The position numbers and the translations under genes were made by a program. The notes under the pieces were generated by a model. That model was given only the letters and a program-made list of their open reading frames with translations, ran no database searches and was not told the origin of the DNA. DNA of 64,000 bases from Peristeroidobacter agariperforans. Its GTDB lineage: Bacteria > Pseudomonadota > Gammaproteobacteria > Steroidobacterales > Steroidobacteraceae. Numbering within the stretch: position 1 is the stretch's first letter; each line of letters starts with the position of its first letter. The DNA is taken from the NCBI RefSeq assembly GCF_004138335.1, contig NZ_RYFW01000001.1, positions 1,116,001-1,180,000 of the forward strand, read 5' to 3'. Positions 565 to 10,011 of this stretch are shown in pieces.

Positions 565-989
565 CGGCCACTCGGCCTCGTTGGTCTCGGTAGCGTAGTT
601 TAGTGCGCTTCGCTCGCTTCGCGCGGAGCTAACGCGCCACCGTTCTCCTGGCCGGATTTCGCTTCGCGCTGTCGCTTCGCGTTGCGCGCAGCCTGACGGC
701 AGAGCTGGGGCGTAGGTGGGGGTCTCGGGAAACTGGCGAGCGTCTTCGGTACTGCCAACGTGCAACGGCTTGCTCGAATGGCGGCGGCGGTACAGTCACC
801 GTGCTTGCGAACTTCCCGAGACCCCCACCTTTCCCCAGCTCTAAGATGCGCGACTCGATGCTTTGTCCTGCGTCCAAGGTGGGAGCGTTGGGCTGGGGCG
901 CTTTCTCGGGCGTCTGCGCTTCGCTGGACGCGGAGAGGGGGCGGCAGCACTGAACTCCGGCCGGGCTTCCCCTTGCCAAACATCTGGGA
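565..989. other. Non-coding gap with a long inverted repeat
   Basis: This 425-base stretch has only short Arg/Pro-rich open frames on both strands and none resembles a protein. Its one clear structure is the inverted repeat at 701-842. The left part holds the start region of the AmpG-like gene; no clear promoter could be picked. Confidence 0.6.
701..842. repeat. Long imperfect inverted repeat
   Basis: The left arm (701-731) begins AGAGCTGGGG and continues AGGTGGGGGTCTCGGGAA. The right arm (812-842) is its reverse complement except for a three-base block in the middle, so 28 of 31 positions pair. The roughly 80-base interior shows further partial complementarity (CTGGCGAGC near the left arm, GCTTGCGA near the right), so the element may fold into one long hairpin. 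It lies between the 3-hydroxybutyrate dehydrogenase stop and the transporter start. It could be a REP/MITE-like element or a strong structural terminator; no second copy was noticed in the window. Confidence 0.65.
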
Positions 990-1748
990 TTACTGCGCAG
1001 TCCAACCACCGTCCAGCACCAGGCACTGGCCCGTGATATTCCGCGCCGCCGGACTGAGCAGAAACTCGACGCATCCAACCAATTCATCCGTGGTAATGAA
1101 TTCCCGCTTGGGCATCGGCTTCAGCATGATCTCCTCGACCACCTGCTGCTCCGTCATGTGATGAGTCTTGGCGAGTGAGGCGATCTGCGCATCGACGAGT
1201 GGCGTCTTCACATACCCCGGGCACACGGTGTTTACCGTGATATCCGCGTCGTGCGTCTCCAGCGCAATCGTCTTGCTGAAGCCCACGAGACCATGCTTCG
1301 CCGCCACGTACGCGCTCTTGAACGGCGACGCGATCAGCGCGTGAATCGAGCCGATATTCACGATCCGGCCATAGTTCCTCTTCCGCATGGACGGCAACAC
1401 AGCTCGCGTCAGCAAAGCAGTTCCCGTCAGCATCACCGCAATCAGGAGCTGCCACTTCTCCGGCGGAAACTCCTCCAGCGGCGACACGAATTGCAGGCCG
1501 GCGTTGTTGATCAGGATATCCGGCGTGTCTTCACCCAAAGACGCAAACGCCGCATCGATCTGCTTCGCATCCGACAAGTCGAACGCCAGCGTACGAATCC
1601 GAGGCACACTGTTTCTTAACGAATCGAGCGCGGACTGCTGTAAGTCACAAGCGATGACCTCGTGGCCGCCCGCCGCGAAGTGTTCGGTCAGCGCCAGGCC
1701 GATGCCGCTGGCCGCGCCGGTGATCAGGATGCGATGTTTAGAAGCCAT
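990..1748 (-). CDS. bdhA: D-3-hydroxybutyrate dehydrogenase (SDR family)
   Basis: This short-chain dehydrogenase of 252 residues interconverts 3-hydroxybutyrate and acetoacetate with NAD in the cytosol. It has the GAASGIG nucleotide loop, NNAG, the catalytic Ser in NIGSIHA and the YVAAK motif. Family-specific features include NNAGLQFVSPLEEFPPEKW, TVCPGYVKTPLVDAQI and a DGGWTAQ end. The ATG at 1748 (MASKHRILITG) is chosen over a TTG at 1760 because it gives the usual N-terminus. It follows the TonB receptor on the same strand after about 80 bases and may be co-transcribed with it. A different hydroxyacid substrate remains possible. Confidence 0.8.
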   Translation of the reverse strand: MASKHRILITGAASGIGLALTEHFAAGGHEVIACDLQQSALDSLRNSVPRIRTLAFDLSDAKQIDAAFASLGEDTPDILINNAGLQFVSPLEEFPPEKWQLLIAVMLTGTALLTRAVLPSMRKRNYGRIVNIGSIHALIASPFKSAYVAAKHGLVGFSKTIALETHDADITVNTVCPGYVKTPLVDAQIASLAKTHHMTEQQVVEEIMLKPMPKREFITTDELVGCVEFLLSPAARNITGQCLVLDGGWTAQ

Positions 1749-1829
1749 GAGCCCGGTCAATCAGCTTTTCAGAAGCCGTGTTGTGGCGCTAGGGCGCACA
1801 ACACGACACCTGGAACGTTCGATTCGCAA

Positions 1830-4139
1830 TTAGTAACGATACGTTGCGGTTACCGAGACGGTCCGCGGCGGTCCGTAGAAACCTATCTGGCTGAACCCAC
1901 CCGTCGGGCCCGTCGCGCCGAAGTCATAACCTGCGACTCGATATTCCTCGTCGAGGATGTTCTTGCCCTCGACGGCGAAGCGCCAGGTTTCATCCGCGGT
2001 CGTGTAGGCAACGCCCAGATCCAGAATGTCATAGGCATCCTGATCCGTGATGCTCGCAGTCGTGTTTGCGACCTTGGTAGCACTGCGGTACTGATAACCC
2101 GCGTGAATGCTCATGTCGCCAGCCCCGAGCGACCACTCATAGGTGCCGCCGAGGAACGTCGTCCAGTCGGGCGAGTTGATCGGTTCGTTGAAGCCGCTGA
2201 GATCCACGCGACAGCCGGGTGCCGGCGTCGGGCAGGAAGTGAAGAATTCTTCGAACTCCGCGTCCAGGTAACCCACATTCGCCACCAGCGTCAGCCCCGC
2301 GACTGGCCGCCACATCGTTTCCAGTTCCACGCCCTGGTTCACCTGTTTGCCCGCGTTCAGCACTGCAGTGGCGTTGACCGGAATGCCATTGCGGATCACG
2401 AACTCCTGCGTCGTGATCTGAATGTCTTCGTATGGCGTGTAGAAGGCAGTGAGGTTCAGCTGCAAGGTGTCGTCGAACCACGCCGATTTCATGCCCACTT
2501 CGAAGTTGTCCGCGGTCTCGGAGTCGTAACCATTGCTCGTATTCGGATTGGCGAGCTGATTGCCGCGCATATCGAAGCCGCCGCTCTTGAAGCCTTCGGC
2601 GTAGCTGAAATACAGCATCAGGTCGTCGTTGAGCTTGAAGTCCATGCCGAGGCGCGGCGAGACGTTGGAGAAGCTGCGGTCATTGGTGTAGTCGCTCTGC
2701 ACGGCGATCAGCGTGAACCCGGCAGGCACATTGCGCTCATTGAAGAGCGTAGCGTTCGGCGCGAGCACGCCGGCATATTGGGCGACGAACACGGTCGCCT
2801 CTTTGTCGTCCTCATTCCAGCGAGCCCCGACGTTCAGGTTCAAGCGGTCGGTCAGCGACCAGGTCGTATCGAAGTACACCGCGATGCTGTCGGTATCGAC
2901 GCTGCCTTTAGTGAGCGAGGTCAGGCCCAGCGAGCCTAAGGAGGCGTCGAACGCACCCGTCGCCTGGCCGGTGAAGTAATAGACACCGGCGACGCCTTGC
3001 ACCAGATCGCTGGTGTAGGTCAGTTGCACTTCGCCGCTGGTTTGATCGTCGCTGTACTGGGCAGGCACCTGGAACAGATTGGCGTTCAACTCGTCGAAGT
3101 CGATGAACTGGCGGCCCTCGCCTTCGCGATACGCGCCGACGACCTTCAGGTCCAATGCGTCGGTGAGCGATTGGGTGTACGTCGCGGCGACGCCTTTGTT
3201 GATGAAGCGATCGCGGTCCACCGGCATGTCGGTGCGTTGGTCGTAGCGATCGTTCAAGCGCGGATAGGTGCCGGCCGCCGGACCGGCCGCGACGGTGAGA
3301 TTGTTGAGCCGCTGGCCGCCGGTAGCATTCGAGTTGTCCTGCACGGTATCGGCCAGTATGCGCAGCCTGGAGCTGTCGCCCCAGACAAACGTCGCATTGG
3401 CGCGCGCCGCGAGCACGTCTTTGTCAGAAACATCCTGTCCGACGCGGTTGTACGAGCGTGCCCGGCCGTCGTCGACGATCTCGCCGTAACCATCCCGTCG
3501 CAGGTAGGCTACCGCAGCGCCGAGAAAGACGTGCTCGTCGACCACGGGCATCGAGCCGCCAACTTTGACTTCGCGCTGGTTGTAACTGCCGCCAGTCGCT
3601 GAAACATTCAGCGCCGCCTCATCCGTCGCGATATCTCGCGTTACGTATTTGATCGCGCCGGCGATCGTGTTCTTGCCGTACAGCGTGCCTTGCGGCCCGC
3701 GCAGGACTTCGATGCGCTCGACATCGTAAACGTCCAGCAGCGCGCCTTGCGGGCGAGCGATATAAACATCGTCGATGTAGATGCCCACGCCGGGCTCGAA
3801 GCCCCACAGCGGATCGTTCTGGCCGACGCCGCGGATGTATGCGTTGATCGTGCTGCTGGTGGCGCGGCCGGCGTTCACTTTGATATTCGGCGCGAACGCG
3901 GTCATATCCTCGAGCGTGCGGACGTTCTGGGTCTGCAGCTGATCCGCTGTGAGCGCGGAGATCGCTACAGGCACGTCCTGCAGACTTTCTTCACGCCGGC
4001 GTGCAGTGACGACGACGCTTTCGATGCTGGTAACGGCGGCGTCATTGTTCGATTGCGCGCTGGCCGGTGTCGGCAGCTGTGCGGCGAGAATGGCGGCGAT
4101 CGACAGGCGCAAGGCGCCCCGAGAAGTATAGGCAGTCAT
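1830..4139 (-). CDS. TonB-dependent outer-membrane receptor
   Basis: A 769-residue outer-membrane receptor that would import a ligand with energy from TonB-ExbBD. The N-terminus is a signal peptide ending near PASAQS. A TonB-box-like SVVVTARRREESLQDVPVA precedes the plug, and the barrel ends in an aromatic C-terminus (TATYRY). The family is the iron-complex receptor type common in organisms that take up siderophores, sterols or plant compounds, so the ligand is unknown. The ATG at 4139 is preferred over TTG at 4145 because a GGGGG tract lies about nine bases upstream. It is divergent from a TetR gene with two operators between them. Confidence 0.88.
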   Translation of the reverse strand: MTAYTSRGALRLSIAAILAAQLPTPASAQSNNDAAVTSIESVVVTARRREESLQDVPVAISALTADQLQTQNVRTLEDMTAFAPNIKVNAGRATSSTINAYIRGVGQNDPLWGFEPGVGIYIDDVYIARPQGALLDVYDVERIEVLRGPQGTLYGKNTIAGAIKYVTRDIATDEAALNVSATGGSYNQREVKVGGSMPVVDEHVFLGAAVAYLRRDGYGEIVDDGRARSYNRVGQDVSDKDVLAARANATFVWGDSSRLRILADTVQDNSNATGGQRLNNLTVAAGPAAGTYPRLNDRYDQRTDMPVDRDRFINKGVAATYTQSLTDALDLKVVGAYREGEGRQFIDFDELNANLFQVPAQYSDDQTSGEVQLTYTSDLVQGVAGVYYFTGQATGAFDASLGSLGLTSLTKGSVDTDSIAVYFDTTWSLTDRLNLNVGARWNEDDKEATVFVAQYAGVLAPNATLFNERNVPAGFTLIAVQSDYTNDRSFSNVSPRLGMDFKLNDDLMLYFSYAEGFKSGGFDMRGNQLANPNTSNGYDSETADNFEVGMKSAWFDDTLQLNLTAFYTPYEDIQITTQEFVIRNGIPVNATAVLNAGKQVNQGVELETMWRPVAGLTLVANVGYLDAEFEEFFTSCPTPAPGCRVDLSGFNEPINSPDWTTFLGGTYEWSLGAGDMSIHAGYQYRSATKVANTTASITDQDAYDILDLGVAYTTADETWRFAVEGKNILDEEYRVAGYDFGATGPTGGFSQIGFYGPPRTVSVTATYRY

Positions 4140-5053: not shown

Positions 5054-5719
5054 ATGAATTGGTTTGTCCAAGGCCTCACCCTGGTGCTGAGTACGATTGT
5101 GGCGCTGCTGCCCATCGTCAATCCGCTGTCTGCGGTCGGCATGGTCGTGACGATCACCTCGAACTTGAACGAGCACGAGCGCACCGAGCAGATCCGGCGC
5201 GCCTGCATTTACATGTTCTTCATTCTCACGTCGTTCCTGGTCGCGGGCGGCCTGATCATGAACTTCTTCGGCATTTCCATTCCCGGCCTGCGCATCGCCG
5301 GCGGCATGATCGTGAGCTACCTGGGCTTTCGCATGCTGTTCCCGGATACCGTGGCGATGTCACGGCAGGAGCAGATGGAAGCGGCGGGCAAGGCCGATGT
5401 GTCGTTCACGCCGCTCGCCATGCCGGGCTTGAGCGGCCCGGGCTCGATCGCCGTCGTCATCGGCTTGTCGGCTTCGGCGCAGCAGACCGAGCACATCGTG
5501 GTAGGCCACGTGTTGATCGCGCTGGGCATCGCCGTGGTCGGCGTGATCTCTTACATCACGCTGCGAGCCGCCACCAGGCTGTCGAAAGTGCTCGGCATCG
5601 CGGGCATGAACGCGATGGCGAGGATCATGGGCTTCCTGCTGATCTGCATCGGCGTGCAGTTCATGATCAACGGCGTGCTGGATGTGGTGCGGCTGGCGCA
5701 CGCCGCGGCTGCGGCTTAA
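5054..5719 (+). CDS. MarC family (UPF0056) integral membrane protein
   Basis: A 221-residue inner-membrane protein with about six hydrophobic segments. It matches the MarC/UPF0056 family in ALLPIVNPLSAVGMV near the N-terminus, GLRIAGGMIVSYLGFRML, and PLAMPGLSGPGSIAVVI in the middle. The biochemical role of the family is unsettled; an older link to multiple antibiotic resistance was not upheld. The stop overlaps the stop of the opposing thioesterase gene (shared TTAA), so the two are tail to tail with no space for a terminator. Confidence 0.88.
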   Translation: MNWFVQGLTLVLSTIVALLPIVNPLSAVGMVVTITSNLNEHERTEQIRRACIYMFFILTSFLVAGGLIMNFFGISIPGLRIAGGMIVSYLGFRMLFPDTVAMSRQEQMEAAGKADVSFTPLAMPGLSGPGSIAVVIGLSASAQQTEHIVVGHVLIALGIAVVGVISYITLRAATRLSKVLGIAGMNAMARIMGFLLICIGVQFMINGVLDVVRLAHAAAAA

Positions 5720-6504
5720 CCAAAGACAGCGAACAACTGCCGAGACAGCGCGACCGGCCGGCCGTTCGGATCGTGCAGCAGGCCGGTTTGATTCACATAG
5801 CCGCCGGTCGCGGCATCGATGTCGCTGTCGATGCGCCACCAGGCTTCCGGGCTGAATTCCAGATCGTGCTCGAAGAACTCCAGCATCCAGACCAGTGAGC
5901 TGCCCGGGGCTGGCGCCTTGTACATGGACAGCGCGGGCGTCGGAATGCAATCGATCAAGCCGACGATGTGCGATTCAGTCAGGGGCGCGGGATCGCGATG
6001 GCGAATGAACACTTTGGAAGGCGAGCGCGTGCTGCTGAAGGGTTTCGCCCCCAACGCCCAGCGCAGCGCGAAGTGTTGTACGAAGGCAGGGAAGCGATCG
6101 GGTGAGTAACGAACCTCGTTGATCTCCTCGACCTTCCGCGGCGAATCGACTGCAGCCGGTTTGACGAGCACCGCCGACTCGCGATCCATGCCGTAGACGC
6201 CAACTTGCACGGCGGCAACCTGATCGCCATCGAGCACTTCGCACTGAGCCAGCGTCACCGCTCGGCCAACACGTAATACGCGTGCCCGAATGCGCCACGT
6301 CCCGGCGGCGGCCGGACCAACGAAGGTCGTTTGCAGCGAGCGCAGCGGCCGGTCGCGTGGGACCAGCTTGCGCATCGCTTCGTTTCCTACTCCGGCAACG
6401 AGTCCGCCATAGGTGGCGCGGCCCTGCATCCAATCGTCGCTGACCGTGACCTGGAATTCTTCGCCCGTCGCACCAATCGAATCGAGAATCTCGGAGAAAC
6501 GCAT
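5716..6504 (-). CDS. Acyl-CoA thioesterase-like protein (double hotdog, TesB-type)
   Basis: A 262-residue protein that probably hydrolyses acyl-CoA. It has two hotdog-like halves: an N-terminal one with QGRATYGGLVAGVGNEAM and LRSLQTTFVGPAAAG, and a C-terminal one with GLIDCIPTPALSMYKAPAPGSSLVWMLEFFEHD and DIDAATGGYVNQTGLLHDPNGRP. These match the thioesterase-like superfamily near TesB. The ATG at 6504 is chosen because upstream codons encode no family sequence and would run into the csaA gene. It is the third gene of the acetolactate synthase operon, 28 bases after csaA. Its substrate is unknown. Confidence 0.78.
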   Translation of the reverse strand: MRFSEILDSIGATGEEFQVTVSDDWMQGRATYGGLVAGVGNEAMRKLVPRDRPLRSLQTTFVGPAAAGTWRIRARVLRVGRAVTLAQCEVLDGDQVAAVQVGVYGMDRESAVLVKPAAVDSPRKVEEINEVRYSPDRFPAFVQHFALRWALGAKPFSSTRSPSKVFIRHRDPAPLTESHIVGLIDCIPTPALSMYKAPAPGSSLVWMLEFFEHDLEFSPEAWWRIDSDIDAATGGYVNQTGLLHDPNGRPVALSRQLFAVFG

Positions 6505-6532: not shown

Positions 6533-6889
6533 TTACAGCAGCTTCGCGCCGTTCGGCACTCGTCTTTCTGGACGGACCAGCACCACGCGTCCTTCCTCAT
6601 CGTGGAATCCCGTGACCAGTACTTCAGAGCGGAATGGGCCGATCTGTTTGGGCGGGAAATTCACAACCGCCATCACTTGTTGTCCGACCAGATCTGCCTT
6701 GCCGTACAGCGCAGTGATCTGTGCGCTCGAAACCCGCTCGCCGATCTGCGGACCGAAATCGATGCGCAGCTTCCAGGCGGGCCGACGGGCTTCGGGAAAT
6801 TCCATCACTTCCAGAATGGTGCCGGCGCGCAGTTCTACTTTCTCGAAGTCACCCCAGCTGATGGGCGGCGCGAGCGTTGGTTGAGTCAT
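6533..6889 (-). CDS. csaA: CsaA-like tRNA-binding protein
   Basis: A 118-residue single OB-fold protein of the CsaA/Trbp111 group, which binds tRNA and has been proposed as an export chaperone. It contains [32 protein letters not shown], then SSAQITALY and [19 protein letters not shown], all family features. Its ATG shares one base with the stop of the upstream acetolactate synthase (TGATG), so translation is probably coupled. Why a tRNA-binding protein is paired with branched-chain synthesis is unclear. Confidence 0.85.
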
Positions 6890-8598
6890 CAAATTTCCTC
6901 TACATGATCGAGCGCTTCGGTATTGGCGGCGCCCAGCGGCACCATCGGCAAAACGTGCTGAGTTGCGGCGATCGGCACGCGGATCAACACCGGACCGCGA
7001 GCGGTCATCGCGCGGGACATTGCACCGTGCGGATCGGCTGCACCGCCCAGGTCCAATGCCGGAATGCCGAAAGCCTCCGCGATGGCGACGAAGCGACTCG
7101 GTTGTGAATACAGCGAGGCGACGAACCGCTGCCGATAGAACAATTCCTGCTGCTGGCGGACCAGACCGAGCGCGGCATTATCGAGCAGCACGATTTTCAC
7201 ATTCAAATCGAGCTCGGCCAGCGTCGCCAGCTCCTGCACGTTCATGAGCAGGCTGCCGTCGCCCGTGAAGCACACGGTTGTAGCGTCCGGCTCGACCAGC
7301 GCCGCGCCGATGGCGGCGGGCAGGCCGAAGCCCATCGTGCCGAGGCCGCCCGAGGTGAGCCAGCGATCCGGGCGCATGAACGGGAAACGTTGTGCCACCC
7401 ACATCTGATGCTGGCCGACGTCGGTAGTTACGATGACATCCTCCGGCGCGAGCGCACCGACCGCTCGCACGATCCCATACGGCGAGCACACGTCGCTGCT
7501 GCCTGGTGTCCGCAGCGGATGACCCTGCTTCAGTTGATTCACTCGGGACAGCCACAGTGCTCGCCGTGTCGCCTGCACACGTTTCAGTAATTCGCGGGTC
7601 GCGAAGCCCGCGTCGGCGCAGATCGACACGTCGACCGCTTTGATCTTGCCGAATTCGCGCGGGTCGATGTCGATGTGAATGATTCGAGCGTGCGGGGCGA
7701 ACCGCTTTGGATCGCCCGTGGCGCGATCATCGAAGCGCGCGCCGATGGCAATCAACAGGTCGCACTCATCGATGATCAAGTTGGTATAGCGCGCGCCGTG
7801 CATGCCCAACATACCGATGTCCAGACTGTGGCCGGCGGGCAACGCGCCCAATGCCATCAGTGTCGAAGTCACCGGCAGGGCGGCGCGTTCAGCCAGCTCA
7901 CGAATCTCCGCGTGCGCCCTCGCCTTGACGATGCCGCCGCCCACATAGAGCACCGGCCGTTGGGCCGCATTGATCATTTGAGCCGCGAGATCGAAGTGCT
8001 GCCGCGTTTCGAGCACGGAGATCGACGCTTGCTCACGCTGTGCTTCCCTCGCAGGCTCAGACTCGGAGAGTTGAAGCTGAACATCCTTGGGCACATCGAT
8101 CAGCACCGGGCCGGGTCGTCCACCCTCGGCGATGCGGAAGGCTTCCGGGATCACGTGCCACAGTTCGCTCGCATTCCGCACGAAGAAACTCGCTTTGGTG
8201 ATGGGGCGTACCATGTCGACGGTCGGCACTTCCTGAAACGCGTCGGTGCCGATCAGCGACTGCGGCACCTGGCCGGCGATGCACACCAAGGGAATCGAAT
8301 CGAGCTTGGCGTCGGCAAGCGCGGTCACGACATTCGTCACACCGGGGCCAGAGGTTGCGAAACAGACGCCGGCTTTGCGCGTGATGCGCGACATGCCTTG
8401 CGCGATGAAGCCTGCTGCTTGCTCGTGGCGCGCAAGGATGTGGCGAATGCGCGTCGAACGGCCCAGCGCTTCATACAACGGCAATAACGCGCCGCCGGGT
8501 ATGCCCGCGACGATGTCGACCCCCTGCCGCTCCAGGAGGTGGATGATGAGCTCGGCGCCAGTGCGTTTCGGTGCAGCGGCCGGTTGTGTAGCGATCAC
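6889..8598 (-). CDS. ilvB: Acetolactate synthase large (catalytic) subunit
   Basis: A 569-residue ThDP enzyme that joins two pyruvates, or pyruvate and 2-oxobutyrate, at the first common step of valine, leucine and isoleucine synthesis. The N-terminal domain has [14 protein letters not shown] and the ThDP-activating Glu in [14 protein letters not shown]. The C-terminal domain has the GDGS...N ThDP-Mg motif ([18 protein letters not shown]). The GTG at 8598 has an ideal AAGGAG six bases upstream and is preferred to a longer frame from 8628. The attenuator at 8643-8791 lies just before it. No small regulatory ACT subunit follows; csaA overlaps the stop instead. Confidence 0.92.
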
Positions 8599-8642
8599 GA
8601 GGGCTCCTTGTTGGGCCCATCGACACAAAACCGGCGCTTAAA

Positions 8643-8678
8643 ACGAAAAACCCCCGCCGGCTTTGCACCGACGGGGGT
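8643..8678 (-). terminator. Attenuator terminator of the ilv operon
   Basis: On the minus strand CCCCCGTCGG pairs with CCGGCGGGGG (one G-T wobble) around a seven-base loop, followed by TTTTT. It sits 26 bases after the leader-peptide stop and about 45 bases before the ilvB start, the classic attenuator position. Confidence 0.88.
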
Positions 8679-8704
8679 CGTTGATTCGTAATTTAATAGT
8701 TCCC

Positions 8705-8791
8705 CTACGGCGCGTCGCTGATGGCTACGACCGGTACTACGACGTTGATCAGGCTGATGATCACGGCGATGGGGGAGGAAGTATGGGACAC
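8705..8791 (-). CDS. ilvL: ilv operon leader peptide
   Basis: A 28-codon frame starting GTG at 8791 and ending TAG at 8705. Residues 8-24 read IAVIISLINVVVPVVAI, so 12 of 17 are Ile, Val or Leu. It lies between a sigma-70-like promoter and a Rho-independent terminator ahead of acetolactate synthase. This is how ribosome stalling on scarce branched-chain aminoacyl-tRNA controls ilv operons in enterobacteria. A GTG at 8764 would give a 19-residue version that keeps most of the control codons. No strong Shine-Dalgarno sequence precedes either start. Confidence 0.8.
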   Translation of the reverse strand: MSHTSSPIAVIISLINVVVPVVAISDAP

Positions 8792-8809
8792 GTGCGGGTT
8801 AGTCACTTA

Positions 8810-8821
8810 AGTCACGTGACT
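8810..8821. promoter_or_regulatory. Perfect palindrome at the ilv transcription start
   Basis: AGTCACGTGACT is a 12-base perfect palindrome directly downstream of the -10 box at 8824-8829. A second AGTCAC lies at 8801-8806. The position suits an operator that would add repression to attenuation. Confidence 0.4.
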
Positions 8822-8823
8822 GC

Positions 8824-8853
8824 ACTATAGCCACCCCGCGCGTAACCTGACAA
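8824..8853 (-). promoter_or_regulatory. Sigma-70-like promoter of the ilv operon
   Basis: On the minus strand TTGTCA (8848-8853) and TATAGT (8824-8829) are separated by 18 bases. The predicted start lies about 25 bases before the leader-peptide GTG. Confidence 0.65.
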
Positions 8854-8877
8854 GTGCGCTGACGTGCAACACCTCAT

Positions 8878-10011
8878 TTATTGCGTCAGGGCGCGTGGAG
8901 CGGGGCCAACATAATGCGCGGTGGGCCGAATGATGCGATTGTCCTGTCGCTGTTCCATCACATGTGCGACCCAGCCGAACACGCGCGCGGCCGCGAAGCT
9001 CGCGGTGAAAAACTCCTTGGGAATACCCAGCGCCAGATAAACGACGCCTTTGTAGAACTCCAGGTTGGCGCGCAGCGTGCGTCGTTTCTCACGAGTTTGC
9101 TCGATGAAGGCTTCGTCGACGGCGCTCAGCACATCGAGCAGCTTGATGTGTTCAGGCCGATGCGCAGCTTGCTGGGCCAGCGCCCGGATCATGCGTGAGC
9201 GAGGATCGACCACGCGATACTCGCGATGACCCATGCCCATCACCTTGCGCCCGGTTGCAAGGCACTGCGCCACGAACTCGCGTGCGCGTTCAGGCTCGCC
9301 GACTTCTAGCGCCATCTCCAGTGCTTGCTGATCGGCGGCGCCGTGCAGCGGTCCATATAACGCGCCCATGGCGGCAGAGAGGGCCGAAGTCGCCGGGGCT
9401 AGTGTCGAAGTGACCACGCGCGCGGTGAATGTGCTGGCGTTGAAGCCATGATCGAGTTGCAAGATCTGCGCACTTTCAAATACCGAGACTTCGAGCGGCG
9501 AGGGCTGCCGGCCGTGCAACAGTTGCAGGTAACGCTCGCCATAGCGGCGCGAGCTCGGATACGGATGCTCGGGATGATCCTGCAGCGCTGCGTAGATGGT
9601 GGCGATGGCGGCGGGAATGCGAGCAGCGACGATGAGCGCCTCTTCTTCCTGCGGCGATCGGCCCAGGCTGATGGCGGGAGGTTCCAACGCGAGCAAGCTC
9701 GTGATCGCTTGCAATGTCGCCATCGGATGCTCGCCATGCCGCGCGATCTGACGAAGAGACGCGGCGAGCTCCGGCGGCAAGCGGCCTGCGATCCACAAAT
9801 AGTCTTCGACTTCCTGGAGTCGATCGGCATCCGGCAGCGTTCCGAACACGACCAGGTGCATGACTTCTGCGAAGCGCTTACGCGCCAGCTCTTCGACGGC
9901 GTATCCGCGGTAGTAGAGCCGGCCGGCTTCGCCATCGATCAGCGACACCGCAGTGGTGTCGGCGATCACGCCTTCCAGACCCTTGTGAACGTGTTGCAAT
10001 GACTCGCTCAT
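8878..10011 (-). CDS. Citrate synthase family protein
   Basis: A 377-residue short-type citrate synthase, which condenses acetyl-CoA or another acyl-CoA with oxaloacetate. Conserved features are LDHGFNAST (His188), GPLHGAAD (His223), GMGHREY (His262) and QDNRIIRP near the C-terminus. The third catalytic residue, normally Asp in NVDFYS, is Glu318 here (NLEFYKG). Paralogous citrate synthases with Glu at this place may exist, so the protein may be a second or methylcitrate-type enzyme rather than the main cycle enzyme. It starts at ATG 10011 with GGGGAC upstream and is divergent from a LysR gene that may control it. Confidence 0.85.
   Translation of the reverse strand: MSESLQHVHKGLEGVIADTTAVSLIDGEAGRLYYRGYAVEELARKRFAEVMHLVVFGTLPDADRLQEVEDYLWIAGRLPPELAASLRQIARHGEHPMATLQAITSLLALEPPAISLGRSPQEEEALIVAARIPAAIATIYAALQDHPEHPYPSSRRYGERYLQLLHGRQPSPLEVSVFESAQILQLDHGFNASTFTARVVTSTLAPATSALSAAMGALYGPLHGAADQQALEMALEVGEPERAREFVAQCLATGRKVMGMGHREYRVVDPRSRMIRALAQQAAHRPEHIKLLDVLSAVDEAFIEQTREKRRTLRANLEFYKGVVYLALGIPKEFFTASFAAARVFGWVAHVMEQRQDNRIIRPTAHYVGPAPRALTQ

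Follow-up and report, generated by a model that had tools for sequence, protein, structure and literature searches.

A probable IvbL-type attenuator with changed downstream genes in Peristeroidobacter agariperforans and its relatives

Judging from its sequence, the element upstream of ilvB in the window (by which we mean the whole analysed stretch of 64,000 nucleotides) is very probably a ribosome-mediated transcription attenuator of the IvbL type, homologous to enteric ivbL. It is not a new kind of attenuator; what differs is the cargo, so that a well-known regulatory element seems to have acquired new genes. As far as our searches go, an IvbL-type attenuator is new to this lineage. The minus strand carries, in order, a promoter-like pair, a leader ORF rich in branched-chain residues, a terminator with a T run and the tightly packed genes ilvB, csaA and a TesB-like thioesterase gene (Table 1). 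The original prediction, made from the same DNA, had listed a promoter, a leader, a terminator with T run and ilvB with its ribosome-binding site in this order on this strand, and all of these parts are present.

Table 1. Features of the attenuator locus (window positions)
Feature	Position	Strand	Basis and occurrence in relatives
-35-like hexamer TTGTCA	8848..8853	-	pattern scan; same hexamer in L150, L152, L153; TTGTTG in L151
-10-like hexamer TATAGT	8824..8829	-	TATA(G/T)T before leader in 9/10 fetched family loci; not in L155
Leader ORF, 33 codons + UAG: (M)TNPHVSHTSSPIAVIISLINVVVPVVAISDAP	8705..8806	-	Val run + UAG stop in 10/10 fetched family loci
Control codons I13 to V27	8726..8770	-	folding between assumed ribosome edge and terminator loop; a stall here would free the antiterminator strand
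Antiterminator strand GCGCCG-UA-GGGG (spans the final two leader codons, the stop and 3 further nt)	8702..8713	-	alignment, covariation
Antiterminator partner CCCC-GU-CGGUGC (part of terminator 5' arm + loop)	8665..8676	-	alignment, covariation, RNAalifold
Intrinsic-terminator-like hairpin, 13 pairs, loop of 5; T-rich after, to 8640	8649..8679	-	folding
ilvB Shine-Dalgarno AAGGAG	8604..8609	-	read from sequence
ilvB, probable AHAS I-type acetolactate synthase large subunit, GTG start	6889..8598	-	TIGR00118, tree
csaA, CsaA/Trbp-type tRNA-binding protein	6533..6889	-	TIGR02222 + NF007493 above cut-off
TesB-like acyl-CoA thioesterase gene	5716..6504	-	PF20789, PF13622
Citrate/2-methylcitrate synthase gene, upstream neighbour, outside switch	8878..10011	-	profile matches

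The promoter-like pair (TTGTCA-18-TATAGT at 8853-8824) was the only one found, against a mean of 0.2 in shuffled sequences. The leader contains ...IAVIISLINVVVPVVAI... and stops with UAG at 8707-8705. It had been described as an ORF of 28 codons, which exists (GTG at 8791), but the same frame also opens 15 nt further upstream at a GTG at 8806, giving 33 codons. A clear Shine-Dalgarno sequence was not seen before either GTG. The upstream start appears somewhat more likely because several, though not all, related leaders start with M-T. In two related loci (L156 and L158) the leader ATG lies 6 nt past the -10-like hexamer, and the leader mRNA may be leaderless there.

The terminator-like hairpin (8679-8649) has a computed stability of -26.6 kcal/mol. 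In 5000 dinucleotide shuffles of 8600-8860, a comparable short ORF rich in Ile, Leu and Val occurred 10 times and a comparable terminator 11 times; the two in order never occurred. These numbers bear on a different reading of the locus, according to which the hairpin just serves to terminate transcription of the citrate synthase gene, the leader ORF having arisen by chance. That gene does have the same orientation and ends 24 nt before the -35-like hexamer. Nevertheless, the shuffles speak against this reading, as does the presence of the leader in every family locus fetched, including two (L152 and L157) without an upstream citrate synthase match in the fetched stretch. The covariation of the antiterminator pairing described below is a further argument against a mere citrate synthase terminator. 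We consider this explanation extremely improbable and rejected it on the shuffles and the leaders of the relatives.

Conservation of the leader frame in relatives had been set beforehand as a test on which the prediction could fail. The frame was found in all ten other ilvB loci fetched from the family. An ilvB orthologue is present in 11 of 200 family genomes, the window's own included (63 to 100% identity; ten genomes belong to the window's genus, G573 to a different one). At each of the ten other loci it is preceded by a Val-rich leader whose stop is embedded in CGCC(G/U)-UAG-GG, together with a terminator-like hairpin. The leader is nearly unchanged between the window and its four closest relatives, and the remaining family leaders diverge in sequence and range from 19 to 38 codons while keeping the Val run and the end. 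Among the 147 genomes sampled from the order, no full-length close ilvB orthologue was found besides that of the window's genome; the best other full-length matches reach 48% identity, and L025 holds a 54% fragment at a contig end, without the upstream side.

Phylogenetic analysis placed the window protein together with enteric IlvB. In a quick tree of 87 acetolactate synthases, which carries a long-branch warning (L047, L126 and L122 among others), the 11 family proteins group together (support 100) inside a clade of 35 sequences that includes enteric IlvB (support 96, or 100 together with two long-branch rows). The other biosynthetic enzyme of the same genome, L001, falls outside this clade. 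The window protein passes the TIGR00118 cut-off (655.9 against 538.35 bits) and scores below that of the equivalog model NF006016 (831.9 against 870 bits), where Escherichia L038 reaches 1072.2. A marker residue is informative as well: the window protein has Gln (RQQQ) like L038 (HQQQ), whereas L064 and the paralogue L001 have Trp (RQWQ and KQWQ, respectively), the residue found at this position in AHAS II and III. A passage of PMC5727371 describes AHAS I, which bears Gln, as having no preference for 2-ketobutyrate and Trp as favouring this substrate. By clade and marker residue the window IlvB is thus probably AHAS I-like, even though it stays below the NF006016 cut-off.

Across the clade, 32 of the 35 loci have a Val/Ile/Leu-rich leader above the score threshold, and 31 of these 32 leaders end in UAG, the exception being L044 with UAA. 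Four of the 35 loci (L217, L219, L220 and L221) were obtained through the leader model; without them the count is 28 of 31. L039, L118 and L126 are below the threshold; in L118 the Val run is shorter and the stop is UGA. The motif in its strict pattern is present in 29 of the 35 loci.

The UAG stop lies within a strand, GCGCCG-UA-GGGG, that can pair with CCCC-GU-CGGUGC in the 5' arm and loop of the terminator. We analyzed this pairing in an alignment of 25 loci (24 distinct) out of 32. Of the seven left out, L039, L044 and L118 lacked the motif, L126 yielded no leader, L127 had been overlooked by the script, and L042 and L045 are near copies. The terminator was out of register in the alignment and was therefore examined in each sequence separately. 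Paired cells amount to 89.5% (85.5% in shuffles), both sides have changed in 7 of 10 pairs (1.7 in shuffles) and the covariation score is 0.220 (0.142 in shuffles); none of these values was reached by any of 500 shuffles, and further pair types were reached by 6 of 500. Compensating changes include G-C to A-U in L121, L156, L158 and L123, C-G to U-A in L122 and L128, and G-C to U-A in L154.

Much of the covariation signal comes from three divergent rows (L047, L122 and L128); in L122 the pairing itself is poor (4 of 6). With these rows removed, both sides have changed in 3 of 10 pairs (0.89 in shuffles; reached by 3 of 1000) and in 5 cells (1.06 in shuffles; reached by 0 of 1000). When the partner is slid by +3, 6 pairs and 12 cells have changed on both sides, which is near or above the true register, yet only 67.4% of the cells pair. 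RNAalifold, run unaided, predicted 8 pairs, of which 6 coincide with ours, the GGGG part being one column off. Together with the conservation of the leader, the covarying pairing supports the ribosome-mediated branched-chain attenuation originally proposed for this locus.

The position at which the switch would turn was computed by folding the stretch between a stalled ribosome and the terminator loop, taking the ribosome edge to lie 14 nt downstream of the A-site codon's first base. For the window, stalls up to V27 keep the antiterminator (-17.5 kcal/mol or better), which is weaker at A28 and lost from I29 to the stop (-4.1 kcal/mol at the stop codon). A similar drop occurs three to six codons before the stop in L154, L155, L156, L157 and Escherichia L038. 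A ribosome placed at the start codon likewise leaves the antiterminator favoured in the computed fold, so that the folding revealed no protector hairpin able to cause termination when the leader is not translated.

From these parts we infer the following course of events. RNA polymerase would make the leader RNA with a ribosome trailing it. A shortage of Val-tRNA, and in this clade perhaps of Ile-tRNA as well, would stall the ribosome on the control codons, leaving GCGCCG-UA-GGGG free to pair with the emerging 5' arm and loop of the terminator, and the resulting antiterminator would allow read-through into ilvB, csaA and the thioesterase gene. With ample charged tRNA, the ribosome would cover the UAG-containing stretch, the terminator would form and transcription would stop. 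Published work on ivbL of E. coli is in line with the part assigned to the stop codon: passages of the respective reports state that more ribosomes on the UAG lead to more termination (PMC5373646) and that an ivbL reporter gives less output with Val and Leu (PMC11187965).

Which amino acid would be sensed can be judged from the leader codons. The 11 family leaders contain 4 to 12 Val, 0 to 5 Ile and 0 to 4 Leu codons. The Ile/Val/Leu-rich leader that had been predicted is thus present, while the constant signal narrows to valine; valine rather than isoleucine appears to be the constant control residue, to which the clade of the window may add isoleucine. The window leader, with 5 Ile, 7 Val and 1 Leu codons, could also be taken to sense isoleucine about as much as valine, all the more so as I13, I16, I17 and I20 precede the switch point. 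We regard this as possible but doubtful: Ile codons are absent from L156 and L157 and number just one in L158 and L159, Val codons occur in every leader, and the window enzyme bears the Gln of AHAS I, which lacks the 2-ketobutyrate preference mentioned above.

The leaders also differ from their ilvB genes in the choice of Val codons. In the window and L154 to L159, seven hand-picked representatives from which the near copies L150 to L153 were omitted, GTA makes up 22 of 54 leader Val codons and 13 of 269 in the ilvB matches, while for GTG the respective numbers are 4 of 54 and 142 of 269. The bias towards GTA is not general, as the leaders of L038, L040, L046, L121, L124 and L125 have no GTA, and enteric leaders do not show the GTA/GTG bias.

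The closest known system is ivbL of the E. coli type, which we compared through Escherichia sp. L038. There, too, ilvB follows (57% identity), and the Val-run leader of 32 codons ends in A-P-UAG with GCGCCGUAGGG. The terminator is similar, and the stretch around the stop codon pairs with the terminator arm and loop. Unlike enteric ivbL, the window leader has Ile codons, a GTG start without a clear Shine-Dalgarno sequence and GTA-rich Val codons, and it stands before an ilvB behind which no ilvN was found, csaA and the thioesterase gene following instead.

Other RNA elements resemble the locus less specifically. For the ilvB-OMG, ilvB and ilvB-II motifs, a passage of PMC10272879 likewise describes an upstream ORF rich in branched-chain amino acids before ilvB and proposes attenuation; the motifs are reported there from other lineages, and the likeness is one of description. 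No ilvB-OMG match was obtained among the Rfam models scanned on the window and eight related loci, a set that may not include ilvB-OMG, and no Rfam family reached its gathering score in these sequences. As a consequence, such loci easily stay unannotated. A weak His_leader match (24.9 bits, E 0.042, against a gathering score of 49) was rejected as reflecting a common layout only: His_leader and other classical leaders share the arrangement of leader peptide and terminator, with another amino acid and another gene. Among the literature matches listed, we recognised no paper treating this locus. Vitreschak et al. (2004) reportedly dealt with proteobacterial attenuators, and some of these leaders may therefore already be in print.

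To trace the element in other genomes we used a covariance model of the switch (R1), which includes all 11 family loci. R1 has a single match in the window's genome (77.9 bits). Strong matches (62 bits or more) occur in exactly those 11 of the 200 family genomes that have the ilvB orthologue, a result that is not an independent test because all 11 loci are in the model; the next best family match scores 31.3 bits, and 22 further genomes of the 200 match at or under that value. An independent result comes from the order of G504, in which 7 of 41 genomes match the model. Here L217, L219, L220 and L221 lie before ilvB genes of 54-56% identity, their leaders being new to the model. Three other matches, L177 (G504:C182:3564-3647, minus strand), L216 and L218, precede a gene for an MFS transporter, not ilvB; a Val leader could be read in L177 and L216 and was not found in L218. 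In the class sample, 13 of 369 genomes match at 1e-4, four of them outside the model: L175, which precedes an ilvB of 42% identity, L177 before the transporter gene, and L180 and L181, treated below. R1 missed 3 of the 10 genomes of the class whose ilvB belongs to this clade (G446, G351 and G339), and in the order of G385 it recovered just the model member (1 of 3 genomes). Four matches were set aside: L180 and L181 (34.0 and 29.7 bits), with the look of plain terminators, no ilvB by tblastn in 1.5-kb flanks and no Val leader read, and L169 and L170, also without ilvB by tblastn in 1.5-kb flanks. The ivbL switch is thus seen outside enterics, its core outlined by covariation (stop codon in the antiterminator strand, terminator loop as partner), and the genes downstream of it change between lineages.

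In the window, the genes behind the switch are those named in the original prediction (acetolactate synthase, CsaA and a thioesterase), as profile matches indicate; CsaA passes TIGR02222 with 152.8 bits (cut-off 119.65). They had been said to stand in place of the usual ilv genes, which is correct for csaA and the thioesterase gene and not for ilvB, because ilvB is the target of ivbL itself in E. coli according to a passage of PMC11187965. The csaA ATG shares 1 nt with the ilvB stop and is preceded by GAGGA, the thioesterase gene begins 28 nt after csaA, and a convergent plus-strand ORF ends at 5719. All three genes keep this order in the window and in L150, L151, L152 and L153. L154 has csaA without the thioesterase gene, L156 has csaA followed by the contig end and L159 has the thioesterase gene without csaA; neither was found behind ilvB in L155, L157 and L158 (1.5 kb seen in L158). 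In total, csaA follows ilvB in 7 of the 11 family loci and the thioesterase gene in 6. An enteric-type ilvN, searched with tblastn, was found behind ilvB in none of the 11 (up to 3.5 kb; 371 nt in L156 and 1.5 kb in L158) and in 15 of 21 other loci. Its absence makes it less probable that this is the same operon as that of ivbL, but does not affect the identity of the switch.

The anatomy, namely the packing of the genes with the 1-nt overlap, makes it likely that csaA is under attenuator control, and control by the charging of Val-tRNA can soundly be inferred. Both csaA and the thioesterase gene are presumably co-transcribed with ilvB. If csaA is truly under the switch, tRNA charging would set the amount of a tRNA-binding protein. 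It might be argued that the attenuator is real and in practice governs ilvB alone, csaA and the thioesterase gene being passive passengers or expressed mainly from another promoter. Indeed, csaA was not found behind ilvB in four of the 11 loci (L155, L157, L158 and L159), nor was the thioesterase gene in four (L154, L155, L157 and L158; L156 reaches its contig end). Furthermore, the two genes are neighbours in G622 as well, where no ilvB separates them from the citrate synthase gene, and therefore the pair does not need the attenuator. However, the overlap, the GAGGA, the 28-nt spacing and the gene order kept in five loci favour joint control, and we consider restriction to ilvB unlikely.

A more far-reaching scenario, to which we assign little probability, is that the IvbL element is a portable switch for Val-tRNA charging with turnover of its cargo. 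In this genus CsaA would then close a loop: produced chiefly under Val-tRNA shortage, it would change the charging or stability of tRNA and thereby act back on the attenuator that controls it, standing in for the IlvN feedback on the enzyme, which is missing here. CsaA is reported in a passage of PMC11286949 to bind tRNA, and the related Trbp111 to bind the tRNA 3' end, which makes such a loop thinkable and no more.

The window's genome has a single csaA match and no second copy was found; in G573 csaA and ilvB are on different contigs. The gene was not found in genomes G610, G628 and G576, and it is present in G586 and G622, which have no detected ilvB orthologue. In G622 (L194) the citrate synthase, csaA and thioesterase genes are adjacent, with no ilvB or leader between, which implies either an insertion of the leader-ilvB unit in the other genomes or its loss from G622. 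The gene for the small subunit is present as a single copy in 14 of 15 genomes tested, the remaining one being G628 (75% complete), which has none. In the window's own genome, the only small-subunit gene found and the other large-subunit gene (L001) stand head to head (683-3294) and do not form one operon.
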